Shown here in pieces: positions 13,961-46,398 of a stretch of 46,398 bases of DNA. Below the pieces are notes generated by a model. The model saw only the letters and a list, made by a program, of their open reading frames with translations, searched no databases and was not told the DNA's origin. The stretch lies in NCBI GenBank assembly GCA_021736135.1, contig JAIPGO010000020.1:1-46398 (forward strand), in the 5' to 3' direction. The stretch comes from Candidatus Cloacimonadota bacterium (GTDB taxonomy: Bacteria > Cloacimonadota > Cloacimonadia > Cloacimonadales > TCS61). Positions within the stretch are counted from its first letter, which is position 1. Each line of letters starts with the position of its first letter. A program made the position numbers and the translations under genes.

Positions 13961-13969
13961 AGATGCCCC

Positions 13970-21068: not shown

Positions 21069-23024
21069 ATGAGAAAAGCGATAATAATGCTGTTGATACT
21101 GGCAGCATCGGGGATTTTACTGGGGGAAGCAGTAAATGAAGAAAAAGTGCTAACGGCAGCAGTGAATATCCTGCTGGAACGAGGCGGGATCGAAGAACTT
21201 ACCTGGGGAGAAAATTATACCGTTGGTGATAGCGAAACCGATTTCTATATTTATAATTATAATAATACAGGCTATGTGATAATAGCAGGTGACGACAGGG
21301 CTGTTCCAGTTCTCGCTTACAGTTTTGAAAAAGAGTATGACCCATCGAATATTCCACCTCAATTAGAAGACTGGTTTTTTGAGTGGCAGTGGCAGATGAA
21401 CCAGATTCGAGAACTTGATCTGGCTGCCGGAGACAGGATAGAAAACGAATGGCTCAGACTGACCAGCAATTCATTTACTCCCCAGCGAGATCTGCGTGAC
21501 GTGGCACCTTTGATGAGCAGTAACTGGAATCAAGATTCACCCTGGAATCAGCATTGCCCTTATGGTCCCACGGGAACAAATCCATTTGTTTATGCAGGCT
21601 GTGTGGCTACTTCAATGGCACAGGTCATGTATTATTGGGGGCATCCGACTCAGGGTACTGGTTCGCATTCATATAATCATCCGCAATATGGTAACATAAG
21701 CTGCGATTTTGAGAATTCATATTTTAATTATGACAGTATGAATAATAATAGTGCTACTTACGAGGCCAAGGAACTGCAATGGGCAGCCGGAGTAGCTGTG
21801 GAAATGGATTATGGTTCAAGTGGTTCAGGCGCTCAGGTTGGTTACGGTCAATATAGTGCCCGGAATGCTATGATTGCTAATTTCGATTATCATCCCAGTG
21901 CCACTTTCCGTGCTAAAGATAGTTATTCCTCTGATACTTACGAGTTTTATGTCCGAGAAGATCTTGATAACGGTTATCCTTTGATCTATAGTGGAGTGGG
22001 CAGTGCCGGCGGACATGCTTTTAATCTCGATGGTTATCAGGGAACGAGTTATTTTCATTTTAATTTCGGCTGGTCAGGTTATGGTAACGGTTATTTTTAT
22101 CTATCCAATATTAATCCTATGGGCAGCAGTTTTAATAGTGACCAGGGAGGAGTTTTCAGTTTATTCCCCTATGAAGACCTTTCAGCACCTTTCGATGTAA
22201 CTGCCGTTGTATTGGATGAGGATGACGTACTGCTGAGCTGGGATCATAATGAAATGAACCGCAGTCTTTTAGGCTTCAACGTTTATAATAACGGACTGCT
22301 GGAAGAGACCACAGAACCTGATGAAAACAGCCTGATGATCAACAATCTTCCCCAGGGAACATATCTTTTCTGGGTAACAGCACTTTTTGTAACCGGCGAA
22401 TCTGAGATGAGTGAAATGGTGGCTGCCACTATAGCTCCACCTACACCACCCATTGCCGATGCTGGTGAACCACTTATTGCCGGCAGCGGAGAAAATGTGA
22501 CTCTTGATGGCAGTGGTTCCTATGATGTTAATGGCGACCCGTTATCATTCAACTGGACGGCACCTGCCGGGATAGTTCTTTCGGGAAGTAACACTGTAAG
22601 TCCCAGTTTTTTGGCGCCACAGGTTACTGTTGAAACCGATTATGTTTTCAGCCTGATTGTGTCTGACGGCACTTTCTTTTCCGAACCTGATGAAGTGATC
22701 GTTACTGTTGTAATGACTGATAACAATGAAAATGAAGTATCCGGTGATAACCTTTACTTGAAGGGTAATTACCCCAATCCTTTTAATCCTGAAACTGAGA
22801 TTATATTCAGCCTGAAATCCCCGGCATCGGTTAGTCTTAATGTTTATAATATCAAAGGTGAACTGGTAAAAGAACTGCTGAACGGTAACCAGGCAAGCGG
22901 AGAACACCGTATTCTCTGGCAGGGTAATGATGAAAATGGAAAAGCTGTCGGTAACGGAATATATTATTACATGATGAGATCAGGACGCTATACTTCCACC
23001 GGTAAGATGGTGCTTTTAAAATAA
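21069..23024 (+). CDS. Secreted C10 (streptopain-like) cysteine protease with sorting domain
   Basis: The 651-residue protein (ATG at 21069; GGAG upstream) has a signal peptide, an inhibitory SpeB-type propeptide (GYVIIAGDDRAVPVLAYSFE), and a C10 peptidase domain with catalytic Cys in AGCVATSMAQ (about C178), His in GGHAFNLDGY (about H316), and Trp in NFGWSGYGNGYF. A fibronectin-like domain (about 375-455), a PKD-like domain (about 460-550), and a C-terminal FlgD/type IX-type tail (NYPNPFNPETEI, VYNIKGELVKE, GNGIYYYM) follow. It is related to streptopain, interpain and periodontain. It is probably secreted and surface-attached or released after propeptide removal. A strong terminator follows. 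Confidence 0.93.
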   Translation: MRKAIIMLLILAASGILLGEAVNEEKVLTAAVNILLERGGIEELTWGENYTVGDSETDFYIYNYNNTGYVIIAGDDRAVPVLAYSFEKEYDPSNIPPQLEDWFFEWQWQMNQIRELDLAAGDRIENEWLRLTSNSFTPQRDLRDVAPLMSSNWNQDSPWNQHCPYGPTGTNPFVYAGCVATSMAQVMYYWGHPTQGTGSHSYNHPQYGNISCDFENSYFNYDSMNNNSATYEAKELQWAAGVAVEMDYGSSGSGAQVGYGQYSARNAMIANFDYHPSATFRAKDSYSSDTYEFYVREDLDNGYPLIYSGVGSAGGHAFNLDGYQGTSYFHFNFGWSGYGNGYFYLSNINPMGSSFNSDQGGVFSLFPYEDLSAPFDVTAVVLDEDDVLLSWDHNEMNRSLLGFNVYNNGLLEETTEPDENSLMINNLPQGTYLFWVTALFVTGESEMSEMVAATIAPPTPPIADAGEPLIAGSGENVTLDGSGSYDVNGDPLSFNWTAPAGIVLSGSNTVSPSFLAPQVTVETDYVFSLIVSDGTFFSEPDEVIVTVVMTDNNENEVSGDNLYLKGNYPNPFNPETEIIFSLKSPASVSLNVYNIKGELVKELLNGNQASGEHRILWQGNDENGKAVGNGIYYYMMRSGRYTSTGKMVLLK

Positions 23025-23406: not shown

Positions 23407-23949
23407 ATGGGAAAATCAGCGTATAAATTTGGCACTGAAGATAATGCTCATTTCTGCACTTGTACAGTTATCAACTGGCAGCCGGCGTTTAATAATCCTG
23501 AAATTGCAGAAATAATTCTCAATTCTTTTAGATACCTGCATGAAACAGGTAGAATACGTCTATATGCCTACGTTATCATGGTCAACCATCTTCATTGTAT
23601 TATTCAGTGTAACAACATCGCTCAACTGATAAGAAATTTCAAGTCATTTACAGCCAGGAAGATTATCGATTATTATATTTTACATCAAAATGTCTATTTC
23701 CTTGAATTTATGCACAAAAACAAGAGAAATCAGAATTCGGAGAGCAAATATCAGTTTTGGGAAGAAGGTGTCCATCCAGAGGAAATATTATCTCCGCAAA
23801 TGATGAAAACTAAAATTGATTATATACATTTCAATCCCGTGAAAGCAGGTTTTGTCAATGAACCTGAGCATTGGCGATATTCCAGTGCCAGTAACTATAA
23901 TGAAGATAATGGGATAATAGAAATTGATAAGGATTGGGGTTTAGGGTAA
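23407..23949 (+). CDS. REP-associated tyrosine transposase (RAYT, Y1_Tnp)
   Basis: The 180-residue protein has the single-strand Y1 transposase fold: YVIMVNHLHCIIQ supplies the HUH metal-binding motif, and YIHFNPVKAGFVNEP with SSASNY is the usual C-terminal signature. Family members process REP hairpins in single-stranded DNA. Here the gene is bracketed by hairpin arrays (23101-23300 and 23991-24560), the expected genomic arrangement. GTGAGG precedes the ATG. A small GCTGA-TTTA-TCAGC hairpin starts just after the stop. RAYTs are usually single-copy and not mobile themselves; that would apply here if no paralogue exists. Confidence 0.92.
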   Translation: MGKSAYKFGTEDNAHFCTCTVINWQPAFNNPEIAEIILNSFRYLHETGRIRLYAYVIMVNHLHCIIQCNNIAQLIRNFKSFTARKIIDYYILHQNVYFLEFMHKNKRNQNSESKYQFWEEGVHPEEILSPQMMKTKIDYIHFNPVKAGFVNEPEHWRYSSASNYNEDNGIIEIDKDWGLG

Positions 23950-29846: not shown

Positions 29847-30080
29847 TTAATCTCTTTATGTTTTCTCTGCTTAATACTTATAACCGTCTCATAACGTCAA
29901 ATATTTTCTCTCCGTTGATGACATCTTCATTAGATTGTTTTAAACCCACTTTGAGCAAGTTACTCCTCCCGATGTATCGTGAAGAAGTGAGATATAGATC
30001 TGAAAAAGGCAAATTATACCGGATTAGCAGAGGTGATGGGAAATTGACTTAATTGAGGTTAGTTAGGATTTGAGAAAACT
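29847..30080. other. Intergenic spacer before the first 317-bp element
   Basis: The spacer is AT-rich, following the VanZ-like start codon. A 64-codon plus-strand frame at 29858 lacks a convincing ribosome site or homology and is not called. I see no other structure. Confidence 0.5.
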
Positions 30081-30397
30081 GGCATCCCCCCGTTTTATTA
30101 TTCAGGATATGGGGTAATTTCTTATTTAATAAAGTAATATTTAGGATTTATTTCTTATAATTCTCGGTACGGGATAAATTTGTATAGCGTAAGGTTGCCC
30201 AGAAGGTGCTATTTTATGTAAAAAATGAGCCCCTCCCCCACCCCATCGGCGCTGCGCGCCGATGGGGTGGGGGTATATGCAACATTCATAAAGTAGTCTC
30301 GGATTACCGAGCCAACCTTACGCTATACGAATATATCCCTTTCAGGGAAATGAAACTTCACAAAAGACGAGATATTTAAAAATTTCGGGGGGATGTG
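30081..30397. repeat. Nested-palindrome element, copy 1 (317 bp)
   Basis: Ends GGCATCCCCCCG (30081) and CGGGGGGATGTG (30386-30397) form short inverted termini. Inside, an imperfect 26-28-bp arm beginning GGGATAAATTTGTATAGCG (about 30171) is mirrored around 30313-30340. At the centre an exact 18-bp stem (30235-30252 with 30256-30273) surrounds TGC. There is no coding potential. It has MITE-like size and design. Confidence 0.88.
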
Positions 30398-30413
30398 AGT
30401 TAATGCAAAAACT

Positions 30414-30730
30414 GGCATCCCCACGTTTTATTATTCAGGATATGGAGTAACTTCTTATTTTATAATGTAATATTTAGGACTTATTTCTTATAATTCCCGG
30501 TACGGGATAAATTTGTATAGCGTAAGGTTGCACCGCAGGTGATACCTTTTGTAAAAAAAATCTCCTCCCCCACCCCATCGGCGCTGCGCGCCGATGGGGT
30601 GGGGGAGGGATGCATCATTCATATGGTAGTCTCGGAGTACCGATCCAACCATACGCTATACTAATTTATCCCTTTCAGGGAAAAGAAACTCAACCGGAAT
30701 TGATATTTTTATAAATTTCGGGGGGATGCG
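30414..30730. repeat. Nested-palindrome element, copy 2 (317 bp)
   Basis: It has the same length and layout as copy 1, in the same orientation and only 16 bases further on. The central stem is longer (about 21 bp; 30564-30584 with 30588-30608) with the same TGC loop, and the termini are GGCATCCCCACG and CGGGGGGATGCG. A TTGACA hexamer begins 24 bases past its right end, ahead of tRNA-Leu. Confidence 0.88.
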
Positions 30731-30753
30731 AGAGTCAGAATTTGAGAAAAATC

Positions 30754-30804: not shown

Positions 30805-30891
30805 GCCGAAGTGGTGAAATTGGTAGACGCAGTGGACTCAAAATCCTCCAAGCTTATGCTTGTGCCGGTTCAAGTCCGGCCTTCGGCACCA
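30805..30891 (+). tRNA. tRNA-Leu (anticodon CAA)
   Basis: The 87-base tRNA has acceptor arms GCCGAAG/CTTCGGC, a 3-bp D stem with TTGGTAGA in its loop, anticodon loop CTCAAAA with CAA at 30839-30841, a class II variable arm (CAAGC-TTAT-GCTTG), T arm GCCGG/CCGGC around TTCAAGT, and an encoded CCA (30889-30891). It reads UUG. The anticodon stem GTGGA/TCCTC has a U-U mismatch at the second pair, which is unusual. Confidence 0.95.
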
Positions 30892-31024: not shown

Positions 31025-32083
31025 ATGAAAAAAAGTATTGCCTTAATGACTCTGGTGCTGATGTTGATAGTACCGTCGCTGGTTTTTGCTGTATCGGAAG
31101 CCGCTGCGATCTATCTATTAATCGAGCCGAGTTCGCGTTCAGGCGCAATGGGACAGGCACACGTGGCGCAGGTTGACGATGCCTTTGCGGGTTACTGGAA
31201 TACGGGAGCGATGGCATTCAATCGCTCGACACAATTTGCCTTTATGCACACCAACTGGTTTGGTGAAATTTTTGATGATATTTATTATGAATATCTAGGT
31301 GTGAATAAATATTTTGAAGATACCGGTAATCTCGGATTAAGTATAATTTATGCGACTTATGGCACACAGGAGATGTATGATGAGGATGGTACCTTTATAA
31401 AGGATTTCAGTTCCTGGGATGTATCCGCTGCCATAACTTATGGCTATCAGGTATCGAAGAATATTGGAGTAGGTGGAGCATTCAAGTATATCCATTCAGA
31501 TCTGGCACCAGAGGGACAGGGAGAAACGGAAACGGGAGAAAAGGGACAAGGCAGTAGCTTTGCCTTTGATTTTGGCTATCTGCAAAAGAATATCATTCCC
31601 ATAATACCTATGGGCAGGCTTGATTTTGGCTTCAATATTCAGAATTTTGGACCCAACATTACCTATATTAATGAAGAACAGAGTGATCCATTACCTTTGA
31701 ATCTGCGTCTGGGATTTTCCTGGAAAGCTTTTGAATCGGAATTAAGCCGTCTTACGGTGAATACCGATATGAATAAATTGCTGGCAAACCGGGAGCATGA
31801 CTGGTATTCACGACTTGTACAGGACTGGTTTGATCAGCCGCTTGATGCGGAATGGGAAGAAGTAATTCTGGGATTCGGGGCGGAATATGCCTACCTTAAT
31901 TTATTAAGTCTGCGTAGCGGTTATCTGCTTGACCGCACGGGTTCCATCGAAGGTTTTTCCTTTGGTGGCGGCTTATTCTATATTTACGAGGATAGATTCC
32001 GTATTGATGTAGATTTTGCTATGCAGCCCGGTGGAGACCTGCAGGCATATAATAAAACGTTCAGTGTAAAAGTATCGTTTTAG
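31025..32083 (+). CDS. porV: PorV family outer-membrane protein
   Basis: The 352-residue protein has a signal peptide (LMTLVLMLIVPSLVFA), then the PorV signature (IEPSSRSGAMGQAHVAQVDD and FAGYWNTGAMAFN), about fourteen predicted strands, and an ending FSVKVSF with a terminal Phe typical of outer-membrane barrels. In Bacteroidota, PorV (LptO) receives cargo with C-terminal sorting domains from the type IX translocon. Here it is followed after six bases by a protease carrying such a domain. GGAGG precedes the ATG. The family is clear; orthology to PorV rather than another UPF0164 member is likely but not proven. Confidence 0.85.
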   Translation: MKKSIALMTLVLMLIVPSLVFAVSEAAAIYLLIEPSSRSGAMGQAHVAQVDDAFAGYWNTGAMAFNRSTQFAFMHTNWFGEIFDDIYYEYLGVNKYFEDTGNLGLSIIYATYGTQEMYDEDGTFIKDFSSWDVSAAITYGYQVSKNIGVGGAFKYIHSDLAPEGQGETETGEKGQGSSFAFDFGYLQKNIIPIIPMGRLDFGFNIQNFGPNITYINEEQSDPLPLNLRLGFSWKAFESELSRLTVNTDMNKLLANREHDWYSRLVQDWFDQPLDAEWEEVILGFGAEYAYLNLLSLRSGYLLDRTGSIEGFSFGGGLFYIYEDRFRIDVDFAMQPGGDLQAYNKTFSVKVSF

Positions 32084-32089
32084 GCTGCT

Positions 32090-35000
32090 ATGCAGAGAAA
32101 GAAACTACTGACAGTAGTATTGCTGTTGCTGTTTCTTACTCTCTTATCTGCAGATAAAATTGCGCTTCGCAAAGCAGAACCGCAGCCGCAGAGAGAGAGG
32201 AGAATCCACCCCGTTCAGCAATATTTTGAAAAACAGCCACCGCGAGTAAATAGGACATTAAGACCAGGGACGGAAAATCGCCTGCTGGTTATGATGATAG
32301 ACTTTCAGAAAGACGCAGATACTTCCACTACGGGAAATGGCAAATTCCTGAAGGATGCCGGAGATTATCTGCTTGATCTGGGCAAGCCTCCCCACGATCA
32401 GGAATATTACTGGTGGGTGCTGGAAAGCGTTCGCTATTATTATGAGGCAGCCAGTCTTGGTGCATATGATCTGGAATTTGACATCTATCCTCAATATGAA
32501 TATACAGAAGCAGATACAGCCATTATAGCTTATACTTTGCCTCATGAAATGAGTTATTATACTCCGCCTGGAGCAGATACGGATTTAATGATCAGCAGGT
32601 TTGAAGAATATTTCCGCGATGTATTTATCACCGTTGATGCTGATACTACCGTAGATTTTTCCAGTTATGGGCATTTTATGTTCCTGCATGCCGGTGCTGA
32701 TTCCCAGCATGACATCAGAGGAGACAGTTCTTCCGATATACCTTCTTTTTTCATCCAGATTGGCGAAGGCAAAGAAGTAACAGTTGACGGCGTAGTAATT
32801 GATCATGCCTGTAATGTGCCGGAAACCATCAGTCAGGATGGACAGTATGGAGTCCCGAACGGCGTGATTGCTCATGAATTCGGGCATTCGCTGGGTTTTG
32901 CTGATTTGTATAGCACTTTAACGGGAGCACCACAGGTCGGCTGGTTTGATATTATGGATTCAGGTGGCATGGGCGAACTGGTGGTTATGGAAATTGATGG
33001 CGAACTAATCACCCTGGAAGGCGGACTTCCAACTTTACCAAGCGCCTGGCATCGGGTTCTTGCCTGGGAAGATTATCTGCGTAATAATAAAATGCTGGTT
33101 GATATCAGCGAACTGGACTGGAGCCAGCCTATCCGGATTGATCCGGCAGAAAAGCTGTATGAAGGCGGTAGAGTTGAATATCCTTATTTTATAAAAGTGC
33201 CTTTAACAGATAAAGAATATCTGCTCATTGAGAACCGGCAGGTTGATCCTGACGGAGACAGCGGATTGAATTTTAAGGGTGCTTTGCCGCAAAATCCTAA
33301 CAGCACGATCGATAAGAAATACCGCGTCTTGTGGTATCCCACCTATCCTGCACCTGACCCGCGGGATACACCGAACTGGGAATATGATCTCTTTTTACCT
33401 GGCTGGCAGAATACCGGTGACGACGGCAGAATATATAATTACGGCGGCGGACTTGTCATCTGGCATATAGATGATGGCATCATCTATGAAGAAGGTGAAT
33501 GGGAAGGTGACGAGTTTTACTCCAACTATGCGATGAACACGGTGAATGCCCTGCATACGCACAGGGGAGTGAAAGTAATCGAAGCAGATGGTTTTGACAA
33601 TATCGGCAATTACAATGACAGTTATAATATTCTGGGCTCAGCGTGGGATCCTTTTTTCCGTTATCAGCCCGTTTTAACCAAAAACGGCGAATTTGTACGC
33701 TGGGCAGACCAGGGTATAGCTATCAATGTAATATTGAGTAATGAAGATGAGTTTATTCATACTGTAGATTTTAATGGAATATCCATTCCTGCCATGATGA
33801 CGAATGACGGTGATCCTTCCTTTCTGGGATTATCGGAAATAAGTTCCTATAATATTAACCCGGGTATGGAAAGATATATGTCTTTCCGTTATGGCTGTCA
33901 GGCTTATGATGAGATCAGCATCCTGCGAAATTACGATACTCTGAATGCTATCAGCCGACCGGGAATTGTTTATCAATATCCTTCGCTGGCGGTGCTGGCA
34001 GATGAAAACATAGAATTATTGACCAGGATCGGAAATGAATGGAATAACTCATATGACGTGATTTATAACTGGGCACATGAGATCACCCAGCCTACAGTAA
34101 GTTATGATTATGATAGCGATGGTAACAATGAATTCGTGCTGGTTTCAGACAACATCCTGGCAATAGTGAACGAATTGGATGTCAGCGAAGAGGAATATCC
34201 TGCTGCTTTCAGTGACGCCCCCATGTTCCTGCCAACGGGACAGACGATATATCCCCTGGCAGACCGGCTTATGATTAATGAACTGGAATTGACCATAGCA
34301 GGTGCAAAAGTAGCCTGGGATGGAGAATATCTGATTGCTCAGACATCTGACCGGCTTTATTACGTTGATATGGTTTCTGCTGATATCCAGGTAGAATATT
34401 TACTTCCCGAAAGCAACATTGCCTATTATCCACAAATATTTAGAGATCTGGAAGGAAATACAACCTGTTATACCGCTTCTGAAAATGGCAGTATCCGTAG
34501 ATATAATCTGAACGGTGAGGAAGAGATCTTCAATTCCAGTGATTATAACAAGGCCGCACCGAGCCAGATCATTTTAACACCACTTGTTTACAATGGAGCG
34601 GTAAGAATGGTCTTTGCTGCTGGTGAAAAACTCTTTGCCTTAACCCTGGAAGGTTCACTGGAGACCGGCTATCCCATATTACTGGAAAACAGGGCAATTA
34701 CAGCAGGCAGCAATATTCAATCACTGCATCTGTCGAACAATATAATCTTAATGCTGCAACGCGAAACCGGCGGTAAATTAGCGGTGGACACAGCAGGCAG
34801 TTATCATCAGGAGTATTCCAGTATTCTACCTTCCGGTGGAATTATCCCACAATACTGGCATGATGCGGATACAGAGAGCTTGAACTGGTTTGGCGGTGAT
34901 GAGAGTGGAGCATTATATAATGCCCTGCTTTATGATCATATAAACAACCCGCTAATCAACTGTGGCTGGCGTCAGAACGATTTTGGAATCTTTATTGGAA

Positions 35001-35287
35001 AAGCCTGGGATGCTCTACCAGATGAACAGGAATTTTCTGCCTACGCCTATCCAAATCCATCCAGAGAAGGATATGCCCGTTTCAGAGTCACAGGCGCACC
35101 GGCAGATATCAGCCTCAAACTTTATGATATTGCGGGAAATCTGGTTTATAAAACAAACAAACTCAAGGAAACCGGAGAATATCAGGACATCCGGCTGGAC
35201 ACAAGTAGTCTGGCAAGTGGTGTTTATTATGCGCGTATCAGCAGCGCAAGTAAAATGTTGACAACTGCCTTGGGCATAGTAAAATAG
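32090..35287 (+). CDS. Secreted M6-like metalloprotease with C-terminal sorting domain
   Basis: The 1065-residue protein has a signal peptide (VVLLLLFLTLLSA) and a basic, Arg-rich propeptide-like stretch (about 25-55). Its M6-like catalytic domain has HEFGHSLGFADLY (about 261-273; zinc ligands H, H, D), followed by the met-turn-like WFDIMDSGG and WHRVLAWED. A beta-rich C-terminal half (about 560-970) resembles a propeller and ends in a sorting tail (AYPNPSREGYARF, LYDIAGNLVYK, LASGVYYARI). It is likely secreted through the PorV protein encoded just upstream. It belongs to the immune-inhibitor-A-like M6 family. Calcium or substrate specificity cannot be read. Confidence 0.92.
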   Translation: MQRKKLLTVVLLLLFLTLLSADKIALRKAEPQPQRERRIHPVQQYFEKQPPRVNRTLRPGTENRLLVMMIDFQKDADTSTTGNGKFLKDAGDYLLDLGKPPHDQEYYWWVLESVRYYYEAASLGAYDLEFDIYPQYEYTEADTAIIAYTLPHEMSYYTPPGADTDLMISRFEEYFRDVFITVDADTTVDFSSYGHFMFLHAGADSQHDIRGDSSSDIPSFFIQIGEGKEVTVDGVVIDHACNVPETISQDGQYGVPNGVIAHEFGHSLGFADLYSTLTGAPQVGWFDIMDSGGMGELVVMEIDGELITLEGGLPTLPSAWHRVLAWEDYLRNNKMLVDISELDWSQPIRIDPAEKLYEGGRVEYPYFIKVPLTDKEYLLIENRQVDPDGDSGLNFKGALPQNPNSTIDKKYRVLWYPTYPAPDPRDTPNWEYDLFLPGWQNTGDDGRIYNYGGGLVIWHIDDGIIYEEGEWEGDEFYSNYAMNTVNALHTHRGVKVIEADGFDNIGNYNDSYNILGSAWDPFFRYQPVLTKNGEFVRWADQGIAINVILSNEDEFIHTVDFNGISIPAMMTNDGDPSFLGLSEISSYNINPGMERYMSFRYGCQAYDEISILRNYDTLNAISRPGIVYQYPSLAVLADENIELLTRIGNEWNNSYDVIYNWAHEITQPTVSYDYDSDGNNEFVLVSDNILAIVNELDVSEEEYPAAFSDAPMFLPTGQTIYPLADRLMINELELTIAGAKVAWDGEYLIAQTSDRLYYVDMVSADIQVEYLLPESNIAYYPQIFRDLEGNTTCYTASENGSIRRYNLNGEEEIFNSSDYNKAAPSQIILTPLVYNGAVRMVFAAGEKLFALTLEGSLETGYPILLENRAITAGSNIQSLHLSNNIILMLQRETGGKLAVDTAGSYHQEYSSILPSGGIIPQYWHDADTESLNWFGGDESGALYNALLYDHINNPLINCGWRQNDFGIFIGKAWDALPDEQEFSAYAYPNPSREGYARFRVTGAPADISLKLYDIAGNLVYKTNKLKETGEYQDIRLDTSSLASGVYYARISSASKMLTTALGIVK

Positions 35288-35317
35288 TAAAAAGTATTTT
35301 TGAGAGGGGTATGCAAA

Positions 35318-36223
35318 ATGAAAAAAAGTGTAATTATACTAGCGATGATGGCGATGATGCTGTGGATAAATCTGAGTGCTGAGGAACTGGTAAACGATAT
35401 ATTCCAGGTTGAATACAGCCAGAAGGATGCTCGTACAGCGATGCTGTTTTCTGCACTGATTCCTGGTTCCGGTCAGTTTTATGCCAATCAGAGAGCAATA
35501 ACTGCTTATATTTTTCCTGTTTTGGAAATAGGACTCTGGTTCGGTTATTTCTATTACCGCAGTGAAGGTGAAGATATCACGAAGCAGTATGAGCAGTTTG
35601 CCATTCAGTATTATAGCAGGGAATACCAGTATAGCGCTCAGAAATCACTTATCGATAATCCGCTTTCGGACGATAACTTTTACGCACCTGATGACTATGA
35701 TCCCACTAATCCTACCGATTATGGTTCCGGTGGACATTTCCGGCTTGATGAAGACAACACTCAGCATTTCTATGAAGACATCGGAAAGTATAACAAATAT
35801 ATTTTCGGCTGGCAGGACTGGGTGGAAATATATGCGACCATCGAAGGCACCAGCACCTGGACAGGACCACACTGGATAATAGATGAAGGTGACAAAAAGT
35901 GGAAAGGCAATGATCCGATCAATACCGAATCTGATTATTATGATATGTATCATGATATTTATAACTATAATAACGGAATTTACAGCGTCTTAAGAGCAGA
36001 ATATATTGAAATGCGTAAAGATGCGGAAACAAATTTTGACAATAAGCGTTTGTGTACTTACGGATTGCTGTTCAATCACCTGCTGGCAACTATCGATGCT
36101 GCCCGGGTGACCAGAAGGTATAACATTGACCATCTCACTTATAATCAATGGGGTATAAAAATAGCTCCAACTTATGCTGAAGGAAATATCAATCCTTCTC
36201 TGATGTTGACCTATAAATTTTAA
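35318..36223 (+). CDS. DUF5683-like envelope protein, paralogue 1
   Basis: The start is the ATG at 35318 with GAGAGGGG upstream; an in-frame TTG at 35300 overlaps that site. The 301-residue protein has a signal peptide, then AMLFSALIPGSGQFYANQ (about 40-57) followed by a hydrophobic stretch, a poorly conserved Tyr/Asp-rich middle, and the ending LMLTYKF. 'SALxPGxGQxY' is the hallmark of DUF5683-like proteins. It is the first of three adjacent paralogues (next at 36236 and 36891). Subcellular location is uncertain; the terminal YKF suggests the outer membrane. Function unknown. Confidence 0.8.
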   Translation: MKKSVIILAMMAMMLWINLSAEELVNDIFQVEYSQKDARTAMLFSALIPGSGQFYANQRAITAYIFPVLEIGLWFGYFYYRSEGEDITKQYEQFAIQYYSREYQYSAQKSLIDNPLSDDNFYAPDDYDPTNPTDYGSGGHFRLDEDNTQHFYEDIGKYNKYIFGWQDWVEIYATIEGTSTWTGPHWIIDEGDKKWKGNDPINTESDYYDMYHDIYNYNNGIYSVLRAEYIEMRKDAETNFDNKRLCTYGLLFNHLLATIDAARVTRRYNIDHLTYNQWGIKIAPTYAEGNINPSLMLTYKF

Positions 36224-36235
36224 GCAAAGGATATT

Positions 36236-36907
36236 ATGAAGAAATATATATTCTGCCTGCTGCTGATAATTATTTTGCTGCCACTGGCGGCAGAAGGTAA
36301 ATCGGCAGGCAAGGCAATGCTGTTTTCAGCGCTGGTTCCTGGCAGCGGACAGGCGTATCTGGGCTACAATACAAAAGCCGGCATATTTTTAGCTACCGAG
36401 CTTCTGACATTGGGAGCAGCCATACGCCTGAACCATGAAGTGGACTGGGTTGAAAAGTCTTATGAACAATATGCCTTGAATAAGGCTAATGTTCCCCTGG
36501 GAAGCGATAAAGAACATTATCAGCTGATTCAGAACTATATTTCCAGTGAAGATTACAATCAGCAGATGCGCCAGGATGCCTGGTCGTATTTTGTATTATA
36601 CTATAATGATCTGGATAGTTACTATGCTTACGTGGAGCAAAATCTGCTTTCTGAAGATGCCAGCTGGGACTGGGAAACCACTGCCAACTGGCAGGAATAC
36701 CGCAGCATGCGCCGCGAGCGACAAAATTTGGAAACATATAGTAATCTGGCAGTAGCAGCAGTAGTTCTCAATCATTTAGTAGGATTGATAGATACTGCTC
36801 TCACCGGAGCCGCAGTAAAAAGAAATACCCGTACTCAGGGTAACGTTTACGTAAATCCTGATTTCATCAGGAAAGGAATGAGCATCGGTTATGCGTATAA
36901 ATTCTAA
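36236..36907 (+). CDS. DUF5683-like envelope protein, paralogue 2
   Basis: The 223-residue protein has a signal peptide, then AMLFSALVPGSGQAYLGYN at about 24-42, a helical hydrophobic segment (KAGIFLATELLTLGAAI), a Tyr-rich region with WDWETTANWQEYRSMRRER, and the ending IGYAYKF. WSWETSNNKREYSVYRKR in the third paralogue aligns to the same place, so this region is a second shared block. It lies 12 bases after paralogue 1 and overlaps paralogue 3 by 17 bases. Function unknown. Confidence 0.82.
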   Translation: MKKYIFCLLLIIILLPLAAEGKSAGKAMLFSALVPGSGQAYLGYNTKAGIFLATELLTLGAAIRLNHEVDWVEKSYEQYALNKANVPLGSDKEHYQLIQNYISSEDYNQQMRQDAWSYFVLYYNDLDSYYAYVEQNLLSEDASWDWETTANWQEYRSMRRERQNLETYSNLAVAAVVLNHLVGLIDTALTGAAVKRNTRTQGNVYVNPDFIRKGMSIGYAYKF

Positions 36908-37562
36908 AGCAATCACCATTATAATTGTTTTAACATTCTTCTTCGCTTTACAGGCAGAAGATAATATCAGGCCAGGCTTGAATTTTCTCAAGTCAGCAGC
37001 TGTCCCCGGCTGGGGTCAGCTATCTTTACAGAAAACTTATGGTTTAGGATTTCTGGCAGTAGAAGCCGGATTCTGGACAATGAATTTCTATTACAATTCT
37101 GAATCGGATAATAAAGCAGAAGCTTCCATTAAATATGCCACTAAATATGGCAACATAGATCCTGCAGGTGATTATTCTTACCAGTTCTATGAAGATATGC
37201 GCTATTACATTTGCTCAGGATTCAGTGATGGTGGTTATAATGCACATATTGCTCAGATTGCAATAGGACTGTATCCGGATGATCCCGCTGCGCAGCAGGA
37301 ATATATTGATGCGCATGCTTATGATGAAGAACACTACTGGAGCTGGGAAACTTCCAATAACAAACGGGAATACAGTGTTTACCGCAAACGCATTGAGGAA
37401 TATTCCGATTATCTGAAAGTTCTGGGAGGTGCAATTGCAGCCAATCATATTATCAGCGCGTTTGATGCCTTGCGGTTATCCAACAAGCTGAAAAGAGTCC
37501 GTTTCGGAGTAGATTTCAATTCGGAAAACACCCCCTTGTTATCCTGTACATATAAATTTTAA
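36891..37562 (+). CDS. DUF5683-like envelope protein, paralogue 3
   Basis: The 223-residue protein starts inside the end of paralogue 2 (ATG at 36891), so translation is coupled. It has a hydrophobic signal (IIIVLTFFFALQA), then FLKSAAVPGWGQLSLQ (GWGQ replaces GSGQ), a membrane-like stretch, the shared WSWETSNNKREY block, and the ending LSCTYKF. The length equals paralogue 2. The three genes probably arose by tandem duplication and then diverged strongly. Function unknown; the context suggests an envelope or secretion role. Confidence 0.8.
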   Translation: MRINSKAITIIIVLTFFFALQAEDNIRPGLNFLKSAAVPGWGQLSLQKTYGLGFLAVEAGFWTMNFYYNSESDNKAEASIKYATKYGNIDPAGDYSYQFYEDMRYYICSGFSDGGYNAHIAQIAIGLYPDDPAAQQEYIDAHAYDEEHYWSWETSNNKREYSVYRKRIEEYSDYLKVLGGAIAANHIISAFDALRLSNKLKRVRFGVDFNSENTPLLSCTYKF

Positions 37563-37580: not shown

Positions 37581-39101
37581 ATGATAAATATTGACGGCAA
37601 CAGCCTGACAATGGCTGAGATCAAATCGGTAGCCTCTAATTTCGCCAAAGTAAAACTCACTTCAGAGGCTGTTAAAAAAGTTGTCAAATGTCGCGAATAC
37701 GTAGAGAAGATCATAGCTCGTGGAGATATCGTTTATGGTCTCACTACCGGATTCGGGAAATTTGCCACTATAACCATCCCCCCCGAAGAAATTGACCAGT
37801 TGCAGGAAAACCTGATCATCTCACACGCCACAGGAGTCGGGAATTACCTTTCTCAGGAAGAAGTACGCGCCATTATGCTGCTGCGTTTGAATGTGCTGGC
37901 AAAAGGCAATTCCGGTATCAGACTGGAAACACTGCAGCTTATAATTGATATGCTCAATTGTGGTATTCATCCCCGTATCCCTGAAAAGGGTTCCGTAGGC
38001 GCCAGTGGTGATCTGGCACCGCTTTCGCATCTGGCAATGGTTGTCATCGGCAGAGGTGAAGCAGAATATCAGGGACAGATCTTACCAGGAGCAGAAGCTT
38101 TGCAAAAAGCGGGTCTTGCGCCTGCCAGACTGAAAGCAAAAGAAGGTCTGGCACTCAATAACGGCACGCAGGTTATGACCGGGATCATGGCTTTGAACCT
38201 GCTGCAGGCGGAGAAAATTGTCCGACTGGCAGATGTTTGCGCTGCCATAAGTATTGATGCCCAACTGGGTTCATCGTCGGCTTTTGACGAACTGGTACAT
38301 CAGGTGCGACCGCATCCGGGGCAAATCGCTTCCGCAAAAAACCTTTCCCGACTGCTGGCAGAATCTTCACTGCGTGATTCACACATGAACTGTACTTATG
38401 TGCAGGATGCCTACAGCGTTCGCTGCACTCCGCAGGTCCATGGCGCCATCCGTGCTGCTTTAGAATATAATCGAGCCGTTCTGGAAATTGAGATAAATGC
38501 TGCCACGGATAATCCCCTGATCTTTCCGGAACAGGACAAGGTGATTTCGGGTGGTAATTTCCATGGAGAACCCGTTGCCATAGCTGCCGATAGTTTTGGT
38601 ATTGCCGTGGCAGAACTGGCGAGTATTTCGGAACGCAGAATGGAAAGAATATTGAATCCTGCTCTCAGCAGAGGATTAAAACCGTTTCTGGCAGCTAAAC
38701 CCGGTTTCAATTCGGGTTTTATGATTGCTCAATATACCGCTGCTGCGCTGGTTTCGGAAAATAAAGTTTTAGCACATCCCAGTTCCGTTGATTCCATACC
38801 TACTTCCGCCAATCAGGAAGATCATGTGAGTATGGGCACAATCGGTGCCGTGAAAGCCCGCACTATCCTGCAAAACGTCGCCTGGGTACTGGGAATTGAA
38901 CTGATGGTAAGTCTGCAGGCGCTTGAAGATAGAGATGTGGCAACTTCACCGGTTCTGGAAAAAATTCACCAGTTCCTGCGAACAAAAGTTGCGCGCCTGG
39001 AAACTGACCGCTATCTGAAACCCGATATTGACGCCATGCAGGAGATTTTTCTGCAGGATGAGTTATATAATTATATTCAGAATCTGATCACACTGGAATA
39101 A
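37581..39101 (+). CDS. hutH: Histidine ammonia-lyase
   Basis: HutH deaminates L-histidine to trans-urocanate. The MIO-forming tripeptide ASG is at about residues 141-143 in VGASGDLAPLSHLA, the substrate loop SHATGVG is present, and GGNFHGEPVA and the QEDHVSMG motif complete the active site. The 506-residue length is normal. Residues are as in histidine rather than tyrosine or phenylalanine lyases, though substrate needs testing. No hutU, hutI or hutG is in the window, so this copy is outside a histidine-utilisation operon, embedded between envelope genes. Confidence 0.96.
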   Translation: MINIDGNSLTMAEIKSVASNFAKVKLTSEAVKKVVKCREYVEKIIARGDIVYGLTTGFGKFATITIPPEEIDQLQENLIISHATGVGNYLSQEEVRAIMLLRLNVLAKGNSGIRLETLQLIIDMLNCGIHPRIPEKGSVGASGDLAPLSHLAMVVIGRGEAEYQGQILPGAEALQKAGLAPARLKAKEGLALNNGTQVMTGIMALNLLQAEKIVRLADVCAAISIDAQLGSSSAFDELVHQVRPHPGQIASAKNLSRLLAESSLRDSHMNCTYVQDAYSVRCTPQVHGAIRAALEYNRAVLEIEINAATDNPLIFPEQDKVISGGNFHGEPVAIAADSFGIAVAELASISERRMERILNPALSRGLKPFLAAKPGFNSGFMIAQYTAAALVSENKVLAHPSSVDSIPTSANQEDHVSMGTIGAVKARTILQNVAWVLGIELMVSLQALEDRDVATSPVLEKIHQFLRTKVARLETDRYLKPDIDAMQEIFLQDELYNYIQNLITLE

Positions 39102-39106: not shown

Positions 39107-41143
39107 ATGAAAAGCATAAGATTAATTCTGCTGGGGATACTTTTATTCACCGGCTGCGCCTATTATAATACCTTTTATAATGCCAAAAAGTATTTCACCC
39201 TGGCCCAGGAAGAAGACATCAAAGATGGCAAACCTTCGCGGACTGCTATGCAGAATTATGACAAGGCAATGCAGAAATGCGGCATCATTCTCACGGATTA
39301 TAAAGACAGCAAATGGGCTGAGGATGCGCTCTTTATGATGGCTCAATGCCTATATTACAAAAAGACCAGCCGTCTGGAAGCGAAAGTAAAATTTGAGGAG
39401 ATCATCCAGTATTATCCTGATAGCGAACATGCCATGCGCTCACATATCTATATTGCCCGGTGCCTCAAAGAAATGAACCAGGATGATAAAGCATATCAGA
39501 AACTTCGTGATTTCATTGTTTCTGGTATTTCAAAAAAATATCTGCCGGAAGCGCTGCAATTGATGGCGGAATATTATCTGGAAGACGAGGAATATTCCCA
39601 GGCAGAATATTACTATCAGAAATTAATTGATGAGCATCCAAAATCCGAGCTGCAGCAGTCAGCTTATTTCTCACTGGGACTGCTTTATCACCGCAACGAC
39701 AAATATGAGCAGTCGATCAAAACTTTTCAGGATTTTCTTGATATTAAAGCAGATAAAAAGCTGAAGCTGGAAGCCGGATATTACATTGCCAGTAATAATC
39801 TGCTTGCCGGAAATCCTGCTCTGGCAATGGAACAGATCGAAAAGCTCCTGAAAGATGAATATCGTGAACCGGAGCTAAATAAACTTCGCCTTTTGAAAGC
39901 ACGCGCTTTAGCGAAATTAAATTCCACTGAAGAAGCTGACATCATCTTTGAACTCTTGATCACAGAGAATCCCAAAACGGATATTGCTGCTGAAAGCTCT
40001 TTCTGGCGGGCTGAAATGCACTTCCGCATCCTTAATGATTATGAAAAGGCTATTGAATACTATAATAACGTCCGCACCGAAAATTCCAAATCTCCCTTTG
40101 TCGAAGAAGCTGTCACTCATAGTTCCGTCGCCAGTCAGATATTACAGTATAACAGCTCATCCTCCGATATAGAACTGGAACAACTCATTAATGAGCAGAT
40201 GAAACTCGCTGAATATTATGTGGAAGTTCTTGCCCTGCCGGATTCGGCTATGGCTGTTTATAACCGCATCATATCTCATCGTGATATAATCGCCACCCGT
40301 ATCGTCAATTATCGGGCTGAGCTTGATTCGCTCAGCAGAATTGTTTTCCCGGAACCGGTTATGGAAGATACTCTCGCAGCTATTACAGACTCTCTGGTAA
40401 TCACTCTGCAGGACTCAATTTCTGTCCCGCCCGTGAAACCACAACCAACTCGCAGTGATACTCTTTTGCAGAAAATCGAGACGGGCGAAAATGAAATTGT
40501 ACAGTATGATCAAAAATTTATACCCTATGTGCAATTCGTGAAATTGTGGATGCAGAAAACTGTTTTTCAAGACTCTCTTGCCGTGCAAGAGTTATATGAC
40601 CTGCTGCTGAAAGATTATCCTGATAGCCGCTATACTTATGCTGCCGGTCAATTTATCAACAATGAACCGGTAGATTTTTTAACACCTGCGGAACGAAAAG
40701 AAAACGAAACTATGCGCCTGGCTCTGGAAATGATACCTGAGCTGGCAGATTCAGCGCTGGTTCTGCTGACGGAGCTTTCGGCTGATTCCACAGCCACTTA
40801 TTATGAAAAGGCACTATATACCAGAGCTTATATCCAGTTCCATATTTATTCGGACACTCTGGCAACTAAACCTCTCTTTAACAGGCTATTAGCTTTTAAT
40901 GAAAATTCTGTTTATGCAGAGAATATTGCCAATGTATATAATGGTGAGAAGTTTTTGATCCTTGACAGACTGCCTGCACTGGTCGAACTGGAAGCAAAAG
41001 AACAGGAAGCTTTAGAAACTGAAGAAGCTGAAAACGAGGAAGAGCAAATGATCCTGGAACTGGAGGATATTGAAAAACCGGAATCCGATGCTCCCGCTTC
41101 CGCTGCCCCGGAAAGATCCCCACACCCTAAAACAAACGAGTGA
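39107..41143 (+). CDS. TPR-rich outer-membrane-type lipoprotein
   Basis: The 678-residue protein has a lipoprotein signal (LILLGILLFTGC) followed by YYNTFYNAKKYF, an N-terminal motif often seen on TPR lipoproteins of FCB-type bacteria. TPR and BamD-like helical pairs follow (about 45-330; FEEIIQYYPDSEHAMRSHIY, FQKLIDEHPKSELQQSAYFS type pattern), then a second helical region (about 470-640) and an acidic, Pro-rich tail. It may scaffold envelope complexes, like BamD or YfgL-related proteins; no specific function is claimed. It begins five bases after hutH. Confidence 0.85.
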   Translation: MKSIRLILLGILLFTGCAYYNTFYNAKKYFTLAQEEDIKDGKPSRTAMQNYDKAMQKCGIILTDYKDSKWAEDALFMMAQCLYYKKTSRLEAKVKFEEIIQYYPDSEHAMRSHIYIARCLKEMNQDDKAYQKLRDFIVSGISKKYLPEALQLMAEYYLEDEEYSQAEYYYQKLIDEHPKSELQQSAYFSLGLLYHRNDKYEQSIKTFQDFLDIKADKKLKLEAGYYIASNNLLAGNPALAMEQIEKLLKDEYREPELNKLRLLKARALAKLNSTEEADIIFELLITENPKTDIAAESSFWRAEMHFRILNDYEKAIEYYNNVRTENSKSPFVEEAVTHSSVASQILQYNSSSSDIELEQLINEQMKLAEYYVEVLALPDSAMAVYNRIISHRDIIATRIVNYRAELDSLSRIVFPEPVMEDTLAAITDSLVITLQDSISVPPVKPQPTRSDTLLQKIETGENEIVQYDQKFIPYVQFVKLWMQKTVFQDSLAVQELYDLLLKDYPDSRYTYAAGQFINNEPVDFLTPAERKENETMRLALEMIPELADSALVLLTELSADSTATYYEKALYTRAYIQFHIYSDTLATKPLFNRLLAFNENSVYAENIANVYNGEKFLILDRLPALVELEAKEQEALETEEAENEEEQMILELEDIEKPESDAPASAAPERSPHPKTNE

Positions 41144-41751
41144 TGAGACCCGCCAGTCTGTTCCATACTCAGCACCCGCTTCTGAAAGTTATTGTTACGC
41201 TGGCTCTGAGTATCGGAATTATTATTGCTCAACCGCTTCAACTTGGTGGACTTTTTCTGCTGCTGCTTTTATATTTTGCCTTGTTTCCTTCCCTGATACT
41301 GCACTGGTTAAAGCTGCTCTTAAAACTGCTGCCTCTCTTTATAACTATCTGCCTGTTTGGAATAATTTCGGGAAATGACTTTTACGGAGTTTTAATGCTT
41401 TCTGCCCGGCTTGCCATTTTGCTGCTGCTTTCCGCATATCTGTTTAAAACTGTGGAAATTGAGGAACTGGCTGCGCTTTTGCCCCGACATAAAGGCTTTC
41501 AGGCTTACCTGGCAGCGACATTACTCTTCGTTCCACTTTTCTTCGCCGGTTTTCAGGAAGCACGCCGGCAGACAAACAATCCGGCAACACTGATCAATTT
41601 GAGCCTGGAACTTACCCATGCACATCTGGAAGAAATCCGGGAACAGGTTTATAATTCTAAAAATCCGCAGACGGGATATAGCTATAAAGCTGATGCAACC
41701 GGTATTGGCCTTTTAATTATTTCACTTACAATATTTATATTTTTAAGGTAA
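41143..41751 (+). CDS. EcfT/CbiQ-like transporter membrane protein
   Basis: The 202-residue protein starts at the ATG within the stop of the previous gene (TGATG). It has five to six hydrophobic segments after TQHPLLKVIVTLALSI; a soluble ARRQTN loop near residue 147 may be the coupling helix. Size, an HP-x-x-K start and its position directly before truA (as in the ecfA-ecfT-truA cluster of Firmicutes) suggest an energy-coupling-factor transmembrane subunit. The usual ABC ATPase genes and an S component are not adjacent. The assignment is moderate. Confidence 0.55.
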   Translation: MRPASLFHTQHPLLKVIVTLALSIGIIIAQPLQLGGLFLLLLLYFALFPSLILHWLKLLLKLLPLFITICLFGIISGNDFYGVLMLSARLAILLLLSAYLFKTVEIEELAALLPRHKGFQAYLAATLLFVPLFFAGFQEARRQTNNPATLINLSLELTHAHLEEIREQVYNSKNPQTGYSYKADATGIGLLIISLTIFIFLR

Positions 41752-41755: not shown

Positions 41756-42517
41756 ATGCCCAGATATCTCATTAGACTCAGTTATGACGGCACTCATTTT
41801 TCCGGCTGGCAGATCCAGGATCACGCACGCACCGTGCAGCAATGCCTGGAAAAAGCGCTCAGCTATTTTGATGCTCCAGTTCCGCTAACCGTTACCGGTG
41901 CCGGACGCACAGATGCCGGCGTGCATGCTCTCCGGCAATATGCTAATTTTGATCTGGAAAAGGAGATCAGCCCTCAGCAAATGGTGGCAGCTTTAAATAC
42001 ACGCCTGCCCGATGATATCAGAGTTTTACAGAGCTGGCAGGTGACTTCTGATTTCAGCGCCCGTTATAGTGCCCTTTCCCGTTCCTATGAATATCACCTC
42101 GCAATACACCGCACTCCCTTTAACCGGCTTTATTCCGCTTTCCTGCCTCGCTACCGCATTAATGCCGAGATTATTGAAAAATGCCTGCCTTATTTCCTGG
42201 GTGAACATGATTTCAGCACTTTTGCTAAACTGAATCCTGACCTTCATCATCAACGCTGCACGGTGCAGGAATTTACTCTGGAAATAAAAGATGATGAACT
42301 GATCTTCCGTATTCGCGCTAACCGCTTTCTGCATAATATGGTCAGACGTATGATAGGCACCAGCATCCGCCTGGGTCATCAGAATAAAGATCCTATGATC
42401 ATAAAAGATCTTATTGCTGCTGCCAATCCAAACAACGACCTTATCTTTACTGCCCCACCGGAAGGATTATTCTTAGCCGAAGTGGAATACATTTTGGAGT
42501 GCATTAGCTCCCGCTAA
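41756..42517 (+). CDS. truA: tRNA pseudouridine synthase A (positions 38-40)
   Basis: TruA makes pseudouridine in the anticodon arm of many tRNAs. The catalytic Asp lies in GAGRTDAGVHALRQ (about residues 48-61). LSYDGTHFSGWQ at the N-terminus and FLHNMVRRMIGT near the C-terminus are family signatures. Length (253) is normal. It begins four bases after the EcfT-like gene and is the last gene of this run. Its stop codon lies inside a GCATTAGC/GCTAATGC hairpin (42501-42520). Confidence 0.97.
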   Translation: MPRYLIRLSYDGTHFSGWQIQDHARTVQQCLEKALSYFDAPVPLTVTGAGRTDAGVHALRQYANFDLEKEISPQQMVAALNTRLPDDIRVLQSWQVTSDFSARYSALSRSYEYHLAIHRTPFNRLYSAFLPRYRINAEIIEKCLPYFLGEHDFSTFAKLNPDLHHQRCTVQEFTLEIKDDELIFRIRANRFLHNMVRRMIGTSIRLGHQNKDPMIIKDLIAAANPNNDLIFTAPPEGLFLAEVEYILECISSR

Positions 42518-44073: not shown

Positions 44074-44700
44074 ATGAAGAAATTAATGTTATATTTCATT
44101 ATCTTAGTGTCAGTTACATCACTCTCCGCTGAAAATGTGAAGGCTTTGATGATTTTGCCGGATAACTACGGAGCCAATTTTTACTGTTATCTGGAGCTTT
44201 GCCGGAATCTGGGCTGGGATATTACCACAGCTTCCGTAAACCAGGTTGTAACGCCATGTCCGTCTTATGCAGCGCCACTTGGCTGCGGAAATATTACGGT
44301 TGATTCCCTGATCTGTGAGATCAGCGATGTGACGATTTATGATTGCATCATGATCCATTCTTCCACCTCATTCAGCGGAAATCCTTATTATGAATTTTTA
44401 AATGACGTGGATACAATGCTGCTTTTAGGGCTGGCAGATGCGGCAGACATCGTGATCTGGACGTCATGTGCCGGTGTGCGGCTTTTAGGAGTTGCCGGAA
44501 TAGCTCAGGGCGTTTCGATGCAATGCCCGGCAGGTTATCAAAATGAACTGACGGCAGCAGGCGCAAATATTGTCGGCGAAAAGATCCCGCCCGTTATTGA
44601 CGGCAATATCATCACTACGATGCGCGGACAGTTTTATACCCAGCAGAACGTTTATGCCATCCTCACGGCTTTGAAAAATCTGCAGGAGGTAGAAGAATGA
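44074..44700 (+). CDS. Exported DJ-1/PfpI-superfamily protein
   Basis: The 208-residue protein has a signal peptide (MLYFIILVSVTSLSA), then a class I glutamine-amidotransferase-like fold: KALMILPDNYGANFY, a strand-turn YDCIMIHSS, the nucleophile elbow IVIWTSCAGVRLLGVAG with its cysteine, and VIDGNIITTMRG, which matches the C-terminal DJ-1/PfpI pattern. Most family members are cytoplasmic, so export is unusual. Possible activities include deglycase, chaperone or peptidase-like; none can be assigned. It starts three bases after the tetR stop with GAGGAG as ribosome site and overlaps the next gene by four bases. Confidence 0.8.
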   Translation: MKKLMLYFIILVSVTSLSAENVKALMILPDNYGANFYCYLELCRNLGWDITTASVNQVVTPCPSYAAPLGCGNITVDSLICEISDVTIYDCIMIHSSTSFSGNPYYEFLNDVDTMLLLGLADAADIVIWTSCAGVRLLGVAGIAQGVSMQCPAGYQNELTAAGANIVGEKIPPVIDGNIITTMRGQFYTQQNVYAILTALKNLQEVEE

Positions 44701-46184
44701 GAATTTATCTATTAATTCTAATAATTTTTGCCAGCCTGACAGTAAGCGCGGAATTTGATCTGGAATGGGAAGCTTATACTGGTGGTGAAAATGCTGAATC
44801 CGCCAATGCCTTATGCCGGTTATCTGACGGCAGTTTCGTGGCTGCCGGTTATACGGCATCAGTAGAGGGCAATAATACCGATATATATCTCGTATGTTGT
44901 GATGCTGCGGGAAATGAGATATGGAACCATAGCTATGGCAGCAGCGGCTGGGAATATGCCAGGGGAATATGCACCGCCCTTGATGATGATGGTATCGTGG
45001 TCTGCGGCTTAACAACTGCCGGTGAAAATGAAGGTTTTGATATTTTCATTTTAAAAACCGATATTCTGGGTAATGAAGAATGGCTGCGCACTTACGGCGG
45101 GGACGGTTTTGACACGGCAGAAGCGCTCTGCCGTACGAATGACGGTTACCTGCTTTGCGGATATACAGATTCCAGAGGACTGGGTGAAGACGATATTTAC
45201 GTTCTCAGAACCGATGTCTGGGGAGATACGCTCTGGACGCAGACTTACGGTTCCGCAAATTCCGATAGTGGTAACGGTATAATTGCCTTATCTGATGGCA
45301 GTTATCTGATCACCGGCTCCACGGGTGAATTTGATCAGCCCTGGGCAGGCAGCAGCGGCAGGAATCGCGAAATTGAACTCTTGAAGATCGATGGTGATGG
45401 CAACGTTCTGGCAGAAAATTCCTACTGGACGATGAATACGCATCAGAACAGTTATGATCTGGGAAATGCCGTATGCGCCTGTAACGATGGCGGATTTTAC
45501 GTTATCGGCAGCACTTCGCAGCATTTAGGTGAATTGATGGATGCGGCCTTGATCAAGGTCGATAGCGAACTGAACCACGTATGGAAAAGGCATCTGGAAT
45601 TTAACGGTTTCTATGATTATGGCTACGACATCTGCGAAGATGCTCAAACGGGTAACGTCTTTATCTGCGGTTCGGCAAATCAGTCACAGGCGCATGATTA
45701 TCGCGCTTTCGTGGCAGTGGTGGATAGCAATGGCATCAGACTTGATTATGAACTGTTTGAGGGCAATGGCAGCGGGAATGCCCTGTTCCGCGATGATCAG
45801 GGATTTTTGACCATTGCCGGTTATGGCAGGCAGGATACTGAAGAGAATTCCGATCTGAAGATATTTCAACTGTCTTATCAGCAGAATCCCGCAGAAGAAA
45901 ATGATCTGGCAGAAACCTGCATTAAGATATATAATCACCCTAATCCCTTCAATCCCAGCACGACCATCAGCTTCGATCTGCCGGCAGACGAATTGCCTTC
46001 TGCCAGTTTCAGCATCTATAACGTGAAAGGGCAACTGGTGAAACATTTCGGCAACCTGCAGGATAATCAGCTTGTCTGGGACGGTAGAAATCAACAGAAT
46101 ATCAGCGTTAGTGCCGGAATATATCTGGGATGTTTAAGTTATGAAGATAAGATAATTACGCGGAAAATGGCACTGATAAAATAA
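44697..46184 (+). CDS. Secreted beta-propeller protein with C-terminal sorting domain
   Basis: The 495-residue protein starts in the previous stop (ATGA). After a signal peptide (LLILIIFASLTVSA) come about seven repeats of roughly 50-55 residues, each with an ALC..DG.....GYT pattern, D-I-x-L-x-K-x-D, and an aromatic 'W...YG' strand, which suggests a seven-bladed propeller (about 20-400). The C-terminus is a FlgD/type IX-type domain (HPNPFNPSTTISFDL, IYNVKGQLVKHFG, SAGIYLGCL). It is likely exported and surface-exposed. It resembles 'delta-60/FG-GAP-like' secreted proteins; substrate or partner unknown. Confidence 0.88.
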   Translation: MRIYLLILIIFASLTVSAEFDLEWEAYTGGENAESANALCRLSDGSFVAAGYTASVEGNNTDIYLVCCDAAGNEIWNHSYGSSGWEYARGICTALDDDGIVVCGLTTAGENEGFDIFILKTDILGNEEWLRTYGGDGFDTAEALCRTNDGYLLCGYTDSRGLGEDDIYVLRTDVWGDTLWTQTYGSANSDSGNGIIALSDGSYLITGSTGEFDQPWAGSSGRNREIELLKIDGDGNVLAENSYWTMNTHQNSYDLGNAVCACNDGGFYVIGSTSQHLGELMDAALIKVDSELNHVWKRHLEFNGFYDYGYDICEDAQTGNVFICGSANQSQAHDYRAFVAVVDSNGIRLDYELFEGNGSGNALFRDDQGFLTIAGYGRQDTEENSDLKIFQLSYQQNPAEENDLAETCIKIYNHPNPFNPSTTISFDLPADELPSASFSIYNVKGQLVKHFGNLQDNQLVWDGRNQQNISVSAGIYLGCLSYEDKIITRKMALIK

Positions 46185-46248: not shown

Positions 46249-46269
46249 AGGAATAAAGATATCAACCAG

Positions 46270-46398
46270 TAGAGTAGAGACAGGCTTCAGTTGAGCTTCC
46301 CCCTGTCCCCCTCATCAAACCGTGCATGCGGTTTTCCCGCACACGGCTTTCCGACAAAGTTCGTTCCAAACGTTCACAGTTTCATCAGACGAACCTGC
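46270..46398 (-). mobile_element. 3' end of a group II intron (domains V and VI), truncated by window edge
   Basis: On the minus strand, 46350-46317 folds as a canonical 34-base domain V: AAAGCCG at its start (containing the AGC triad), a GAAA-type loop, and a CGGTTT end. It is followed by TGATGAGGGGGACAGG, then domain VI with GACAGG pairing to CCTGTC, and a 3' end near CTACTCTACT. A GTTCGT/ACGAAC stem before it may be the base of domain IV. The intron continues off the window; the encoded reverse transcriptase is not seen. Exact 3' splice site uncertain by a few bases. Confidence 0.8.

Follow-up and report, generated by a model that had tools for sequence, protein, structure and literature searches.

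Two surface complexes of the type IX secretion system (T9SS), PorU:PorV and PorQ:PorZ, have been reported in Porphyromonas gingivalis (PMC5562754). A second known arrangement is that of the PorP-like anchors of type B cargo, where an outer-membrane partner is dedicated to one T9SS cargo (PMC9143113). For Cloacimonadota, the T9SS is listed as possibly present in the available part of one report (PMC11285876), and the available part of another infers a CTD-anchored complex in one genus and describes the phylum as encoding diverse proteases and histidine degradation (PMC8542988). The PorV-M6-D operon analysed here is not described in the available parts of these two sources. In the literature searched, the domain DUF5683 is essentially without papers, and none joins it to type IX secretion.

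The window, a stretch of 46,398 nucleotides, is contig C141 of a Cloacimonadota MAG of 4.14 Mb with 98% completeness. Five genes encoding a PorV-family barrel (PorV), an M6-type metalloprotease (M6) and three DUF5683-like proteins (D1, D2 and D3) were found on a single strand at 31025-37562, overlapping or only a few bases apart (Table 1). The sequence-only reading of this stretch had placed a PorV-like gene six bases from a protease, followed by three diverged paralogues that overlap or nearly so; the reading frames confirm the six-base gap, and the coordinates together with hhalign homology over most of the length confirm the three paralogues. The overlap between D2 and D3 is 17 nt in the window and the same 17-nt overlap occurs at 29 of 62 loci.

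As in PorU:PorV and PorZ:PorQ, which belong to the T9SS attachment complex, the locus combines an exported surface protein with a barrel of the PorV/PorQ family, and here the two genes are adjacent. The partner, however, is of M6 type and is neither PorZ nor the C25 sortase PorU, which has matches elsewhere in the genomes. We know of no counterpart of D1-D3 in that system. The locus also differs from the PorP-like system, which involves a PorP-like anchor and type B cargo, in having a type A tail and a PorV-family barrel. The parts are of known kinds, whereas, to judge from the literature searched, the way they are combined and the enlarged DUF5683-like set are new.

On balance we consider it probable that the operon acts as an accessory module for the T9SS of Cloacimonadota, consisting of a surface M6 held by PorV together with D1-D3 as dedicated envelope partners. 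M6 would be exported across the inner membrane by Sec and leave the cell through SprA in the outer membrane. The PorV encoded next to it would then take it over, and the PorV:M6 complex would stay on the surface, much as PorV holds PorU and PorQ holds PorZ in Porphyromonas. D1-D3 would be exported to the periplasmic face of the outer membrane or into it, with a helical body and a C-terminal hairpin whose last residue is aromatic, and may build a dedicated hetero-oligomer serving to assemble, gate or scaffold the PorV/M6 complex; we infer their envelope position from sequence features. In the sister order, one D protein may do the whole job.

Table 1. Coordinates of the core genes and of the extended operon in the window.
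Feature	Coordinates	Strand	Remarks
PorV-family outer-membrane barrel, carrier/anchor of T9SS cargo	31025..32083	+	352 aa; PF19572, NF033709
M6-type metalloprotease with C-terminal T9SS type A sorting domain (M6)	32090..35287	+	1065 aa
D1, DUF5683-like envelope protein	35318..36223	+	about 301 aa; ATG 35318, alternative TTG 35300
D2, DUF5683-like envelope protein	36236..36907	+	223 aa; PF18935
D3, DUF5683-like envelope protein	36891..37562	+	223 aa; hhalign to D2
Histidine ammonia-lyase HutH	37581..39101	+	TIGR01225 690 vs 539; operon neighbour in the window's family and sister order
TPR lipoprotein, weakly PorW/SprE-like	39107..41143	+	NF052312 76.8 vs 250; tol_pal_ybgF 81.5; lipobox LFTGC
U203, 203-aa protein, conserved neighbour	41140..41751	+	synteny
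TruA, end of extended operon	41756..42517	+	TIGR00071 171 vs 143; synteny

The order of the five core genes is conserved far beyond chance, while the neighbours outside the core vary between families. Among the testable loci of the set found through D1, adjacency was observed for PorV and M6 in 49 of 49, for M6 and D1 in 68 of 68, for D1 and D2 in 66 of 66, and for D2 and D3 in 62 of 63. Loci found in this way cannot reveal a loss of D1, so a D2-based set and a phylum survey were added; with D2 as bait, matches were found in 38 of 40 relatives. The complete PorV-M6-D1-D2-D3 arrangement occurs in the fetched neighbourhoods of families f1, f2, f4, f5, f6, f8, f9, f10 and f11, those of f3 and f7 being cut by contig ends. 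Protein identity to the window's copies is mostly 30-45% beyond the nearest genus. The check on gene order that the sequence-only reading had proposed thus returned an order that is kept across the taxonomic order, and with a single D gene in the sister order. The relatives found via D1 are MAGs of Cloacimonadota, together with a few records that bear the names Cloacimonetes, Tenebribacter, Zophobacter or Syntrophosphaera. One locus labelled Armatimonadetes (L068, JABMPU010000012.1) matches a member of the window's family (G009) in content and coordinates and is probably mislabelled. Through this phylum-wide gene order, the locus ties a longer form of DUF5683 to a named secretion system.

Each of the 29 high-quality genomes among the relatives has a match to SprA (E<=0.001), which scored over its cut-off in 35 of 40, and PorU-type proteins were likewise matched in 29 of 29 (E<=0.001) and scored over the cut-off in 13 of 40. 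The T9SS response regulator PorX lies in the window itself at 7125-8678 on the + strand (NF052313, 665 bits; cut-off 300). The secretion or surface module suggested from the sequence alone is well supported because the phylum has SprA and PorU-type sortases and the window has PorX; the dedication of PorV to this protease, like the role and envelope position of D1-D3, is putative. The locus also offers a handle on how a T9SS works outside the Bacteroidota.

The barrel scores 80.7 bits against PF19572 (cut-off 27) and is over the cut-off of the PorV/PorQ family (NF033709, 244.5 vs 90), but under that of the T9SS PorV equivalog (NF033710, 164.2 vs 250), and is therefore classed as PorV-family only. 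It resembles PorV as solved in 6h3i (E 1.5e-17) and its C-terminal residue is F or Y. Exclusivity of this PorV for M6 is unproven because each genome has between 4 and 15 PorV-family matches, fifteen of them being found in the window's genome, where the gene at this locus is the top match. Elsewhere in the window, the interval 9488-11965 (- strand) encodes a short PorV/PorQ-like protein (78.7 bits, under the cut-off) and, next to it, one of 533 aa whose N-terminus gives an ExeM-like match and whose C-terminus is an Ig-like domain, lspA being the next gene. On another contig (G000:C116:28946-33534), a C25-like protein in a frame of ~1700 aa is followed directly by a PorV-family gene, which recalls porU-porV, and similar pairs are present in many relatives.

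In the M6 protein, a signal sequence and an M6-type domain are combined with a T9SS type A tail that exceeds the cut-offs for type A cargo (TIGR04183, 36.5 vs 23; PF18962, 35.5 vs 27), from which its secretion through SprA is predicted. Since it scores under both M6 family cut-offs (PF05547, 20.6 vs 22; TIGR03296, 69.3 vs 110.8), we call it M6-type and do not file it as a member. Its zinc motif is intact (HEFGHSLGFAD in the window); HEFGHxxGxxD is intact in all 53 full-length orthologues, as is HExxHxxGxxD in eight of eight proteins of the sister order. The T9SS-dependent, M6-like inactivated metalloproteases of NF052323 have the same overall architecture and length, but M6 differs from them in being catalytically intact by motif and reaches only 197 bits of the required 600. 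That family is closer to a distant M6-like paralogue found in the phylum (L179, with HQFGH), whose best score is to NF052323 although it also remains under the cut-off (281 bits). Of five genomes read, four have HQFGH or HQYGH in this paralogue and one lacks any such motif, and a PorV/PorQ-like barrel lies right behind it at four of five loci. The pairing of an M6-like protein with a barrel thus recurs in the phylum, with one pair active and one inactive by motif, and the two pairs fit the known PorV/PorQ anchoring of a T9SS-exported protein (PMC5562754). At the L179 locus (7376-15580) and also in L180-L183, the barrel is PorQ-like and is followed by a protein of 1.4 kaa, which in L179 is a serine-protease-like T9SS cargo. 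A role of M6 as substitute for the PorU sortase was ruled out by PorU-type matches in every genome, located on other contigs.

A sister family (L155-L164), which shares the class but lies beyond the order, has PorV, M6 and a single D gene at ten loci; HutH, the TPR lipoprotein, U203 and TruA usually come next. One member of the window's own family (genome G002, locus L041) has PorV-M6-D2-HutH with D1 and D3 cleanly missing. The sole break between D2 and D3 is at L104 (refetched as L165), in a family that has D1 and D2 and in which another ORF replaces D3; this 207-aa ORF was considered as a diverged D3 and ruled out, being an unrelated membrane protein. In a tree of 27 loci, D1, D2 and D3 each form one clade (SH-aLRT 100, 99 and 97 respectively), and once the sister family is included its single D groups with D2 (support 100/98). 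Given this grouping and the presence of D2 in every arrangement seen, D2 is the universal copy. Because the single D groups with D2, an early duplication followed by later loss appears favoured, although copies may instead have been gained, as D1 and D3 are on long branches.

In the phylum survey, the D1 profile was matched in 97 of 104 genomes that are at least 80% complete, the matches in the sister family being weak cross-hits to its single D. Two genomes of 99% completeness (G042 and G066) are without any D1 match. In these two as well as in G059, G037 and G079, the distant paralogue is the top M6 match, and no D gene occurs at those loci; G088, G007, G083 and G080, whose M6 gene is incomplete or at or near contig ends, do not count for or against a loss of D1. 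As G042 and G066 keep only the distant paralogue and have no D1, the M6 of the cluster and D1 are missing together. This joint absence bears on the idea that the operon is core T9SS, with PorV as a general shuttle and D1-D3 needed for all cargo. That PorV is the top PorV-family match in its genome and that the extended operon holds a PorW/SprE-like TPR lipoprotein would agree with such a role, but the lipoprotein scores well under the PorW cut-off (Table 1), and the two genomes that lack both D1 and the M6 of the cluster have nevertheless kept T9SS-tailed proteins or the M6-like/PorQ-like pair. A core part is not expected to be lost with one protease, and hence we regard a core role as unlikely. 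For the accessory module that we prefer, the natural one-, two- and three-D versions and the natural absences make the role of D1-D3 directly testable.

D1-D3 are true paralogues of common origin. Pairwise hhalign comparisons gave E-values of 2.5e-40 for D2-D3, 9.6e-27 for D2-D1 and 1.6e-24 for D3-D1, with homology along most of the length. The label DUF5683-like given to all three in the sequence-only reading stands by the Pfam cut-off of PF18935 for D2 alone (27.2 vs 26.7), with D1 (20.2) and D3 (15.4) under it and tied to D2 through the hhalign matches; PF18935 is matched at E<=0.01 by 25 of 27 D1 orthologues. The W-[DS]-WET motif described for the set was similarly found in D2 (WDWET) and D3 (WSWET), whereas D1 has FGWQDW. 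Like DUF5683, the three proteins have a signal sequence, a SALxPGxGQ hairpin, a Glu in the next helix and a C-terminal YxF end, but they are longer (223-302 vs 150 aa), contain an acidic helical insert, occur in tandem and are tied to PorV-M6. A short DUF5683 protein of the window's genome (L061) ends in LLEYKF and matches this layout at its ends but lacks the long middle.

The AlphaFold models of D2 and D1 are fairly confident (mean pLDDT 88 and 84 respectively) and agree in layout: the signal helix and a short helix that PG interrupts are followed by two long helices with the acidic middle between them, and a two-stranded hairpin forms the C-terminus. The aromatic residue in which these proteins end resembles the C-terminal signal carried by outer-membrane proteins. 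This aromatic end was found in 67 of 67 D1, 66 of 66 D2, 61 of 61 D3 (a count that takes in two D3 with the aromatic as second-last residue) and 10 of 10 single D proteins, against a background of 13.6% in 250 neighbouring ORFs. Such features point to a probable outer-membrane or periplasmic position. The outcome that the sequence-only reading had named as refuting it, unrelated cytoplasmic paralogues, was not observed: D1-D3 are homologous, each begins with a signal sequence, and their acidic middles are unlike cytoplasmic loops. By sequence or fold, no solved-fold match in the PDB was found for D1 (best E 1.9) or D2 (best E 0.096), and a relation of D1 to GldM was rejected as the matches (E 1.9 and worse) are at chance level.

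The two helices could also be read as transmembrane, which would make D1-D3 inner-membrane proteins serving the T9SS, for example as an energising or ring complex. They are hydrophobic and have conserved polar residues, the first-helix Glu being found by a simple pattern in 67 of 67 D1, 58 of 61 D3 and 41 of 66 D2, and none of GldL, GldM and GldN was matched over its cut-off in 20-30 Cloacimonadota genomes with profiles that had no positive control. The hydropathy peaks of the helices are marginal, however (KD 0.8-1.6), the middle is strongly acidic (net charge -7 to -15), the C-terminus is as in outer-membrane proteins, and D1 is missing where T9SS tails and the other M6-PorQ pair are kept. 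An inner-membrane position is thus improbable.

Downstream of D3, the run of HutH, TPR lipoprotein, U203 and TruA is kept in the window's family and gone from the cluster in several others, the TPR lipoprotein having the same distribution as HutH. Profile searches gave no significant family match for U203, and the VanZ-like upstream neighbour of the window is absent at the other loci examined. HutH and TruA have no clear link to secretion. The position of HutH beside the cluster, both in the window's family and in the sister order, would suit a protein-feeding operon in which a surface protease is combined with histidine use by HutH, D1-D3 take up or bind peptides and PorV is incidental, as would the proteases and histidine degradation noted in the available part of PMC8542988. 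Nevertheless, we consider this quite unlikely: several families have an intact PorV-M6-D1-D2-D3 core with no HutH left in the cluster, PorV is adjacent to M6 at every testable locus, and in profile and PDB searches D1-D3 resembled no transporter or binding protein. It is likewise decidedly doubtful that D1-D3 are a new T9SS component, a three-subunit envelope complex, built from a tandemly expanded DUF5683-like protein, that in Cloacimonadota would drive or organise cargo delivery to the surface and stand in for parts of the Bacteroidota machinery (GldL, GldM and GldN).

In addition to the single HutH gene of the window, HutH-like genes were observed as a tandem pair in much of its family (L038, L043, L044, L047 and others) and in the sister family. 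Upstream of PorV, two long REP-like palindromes lie within a duplicated 333-nt unit at 30075-30732, and a tRNA-Leu (CAA) is found between these repeats and PorV at 30805-30891 on the + strand. A REP-associated tyrosine transposase is encoded at 23407-23949 on the + strand. Further T9SS-tailed cargo genes are located at 21066-23024 and 44697-46184, both on the + strand, one of them being a C10-family peptidase with an inhibitor-like propeptide. Finally, a group II intron match (52.5 bits) was found at the contig end at 46269-46351 on the - strand.
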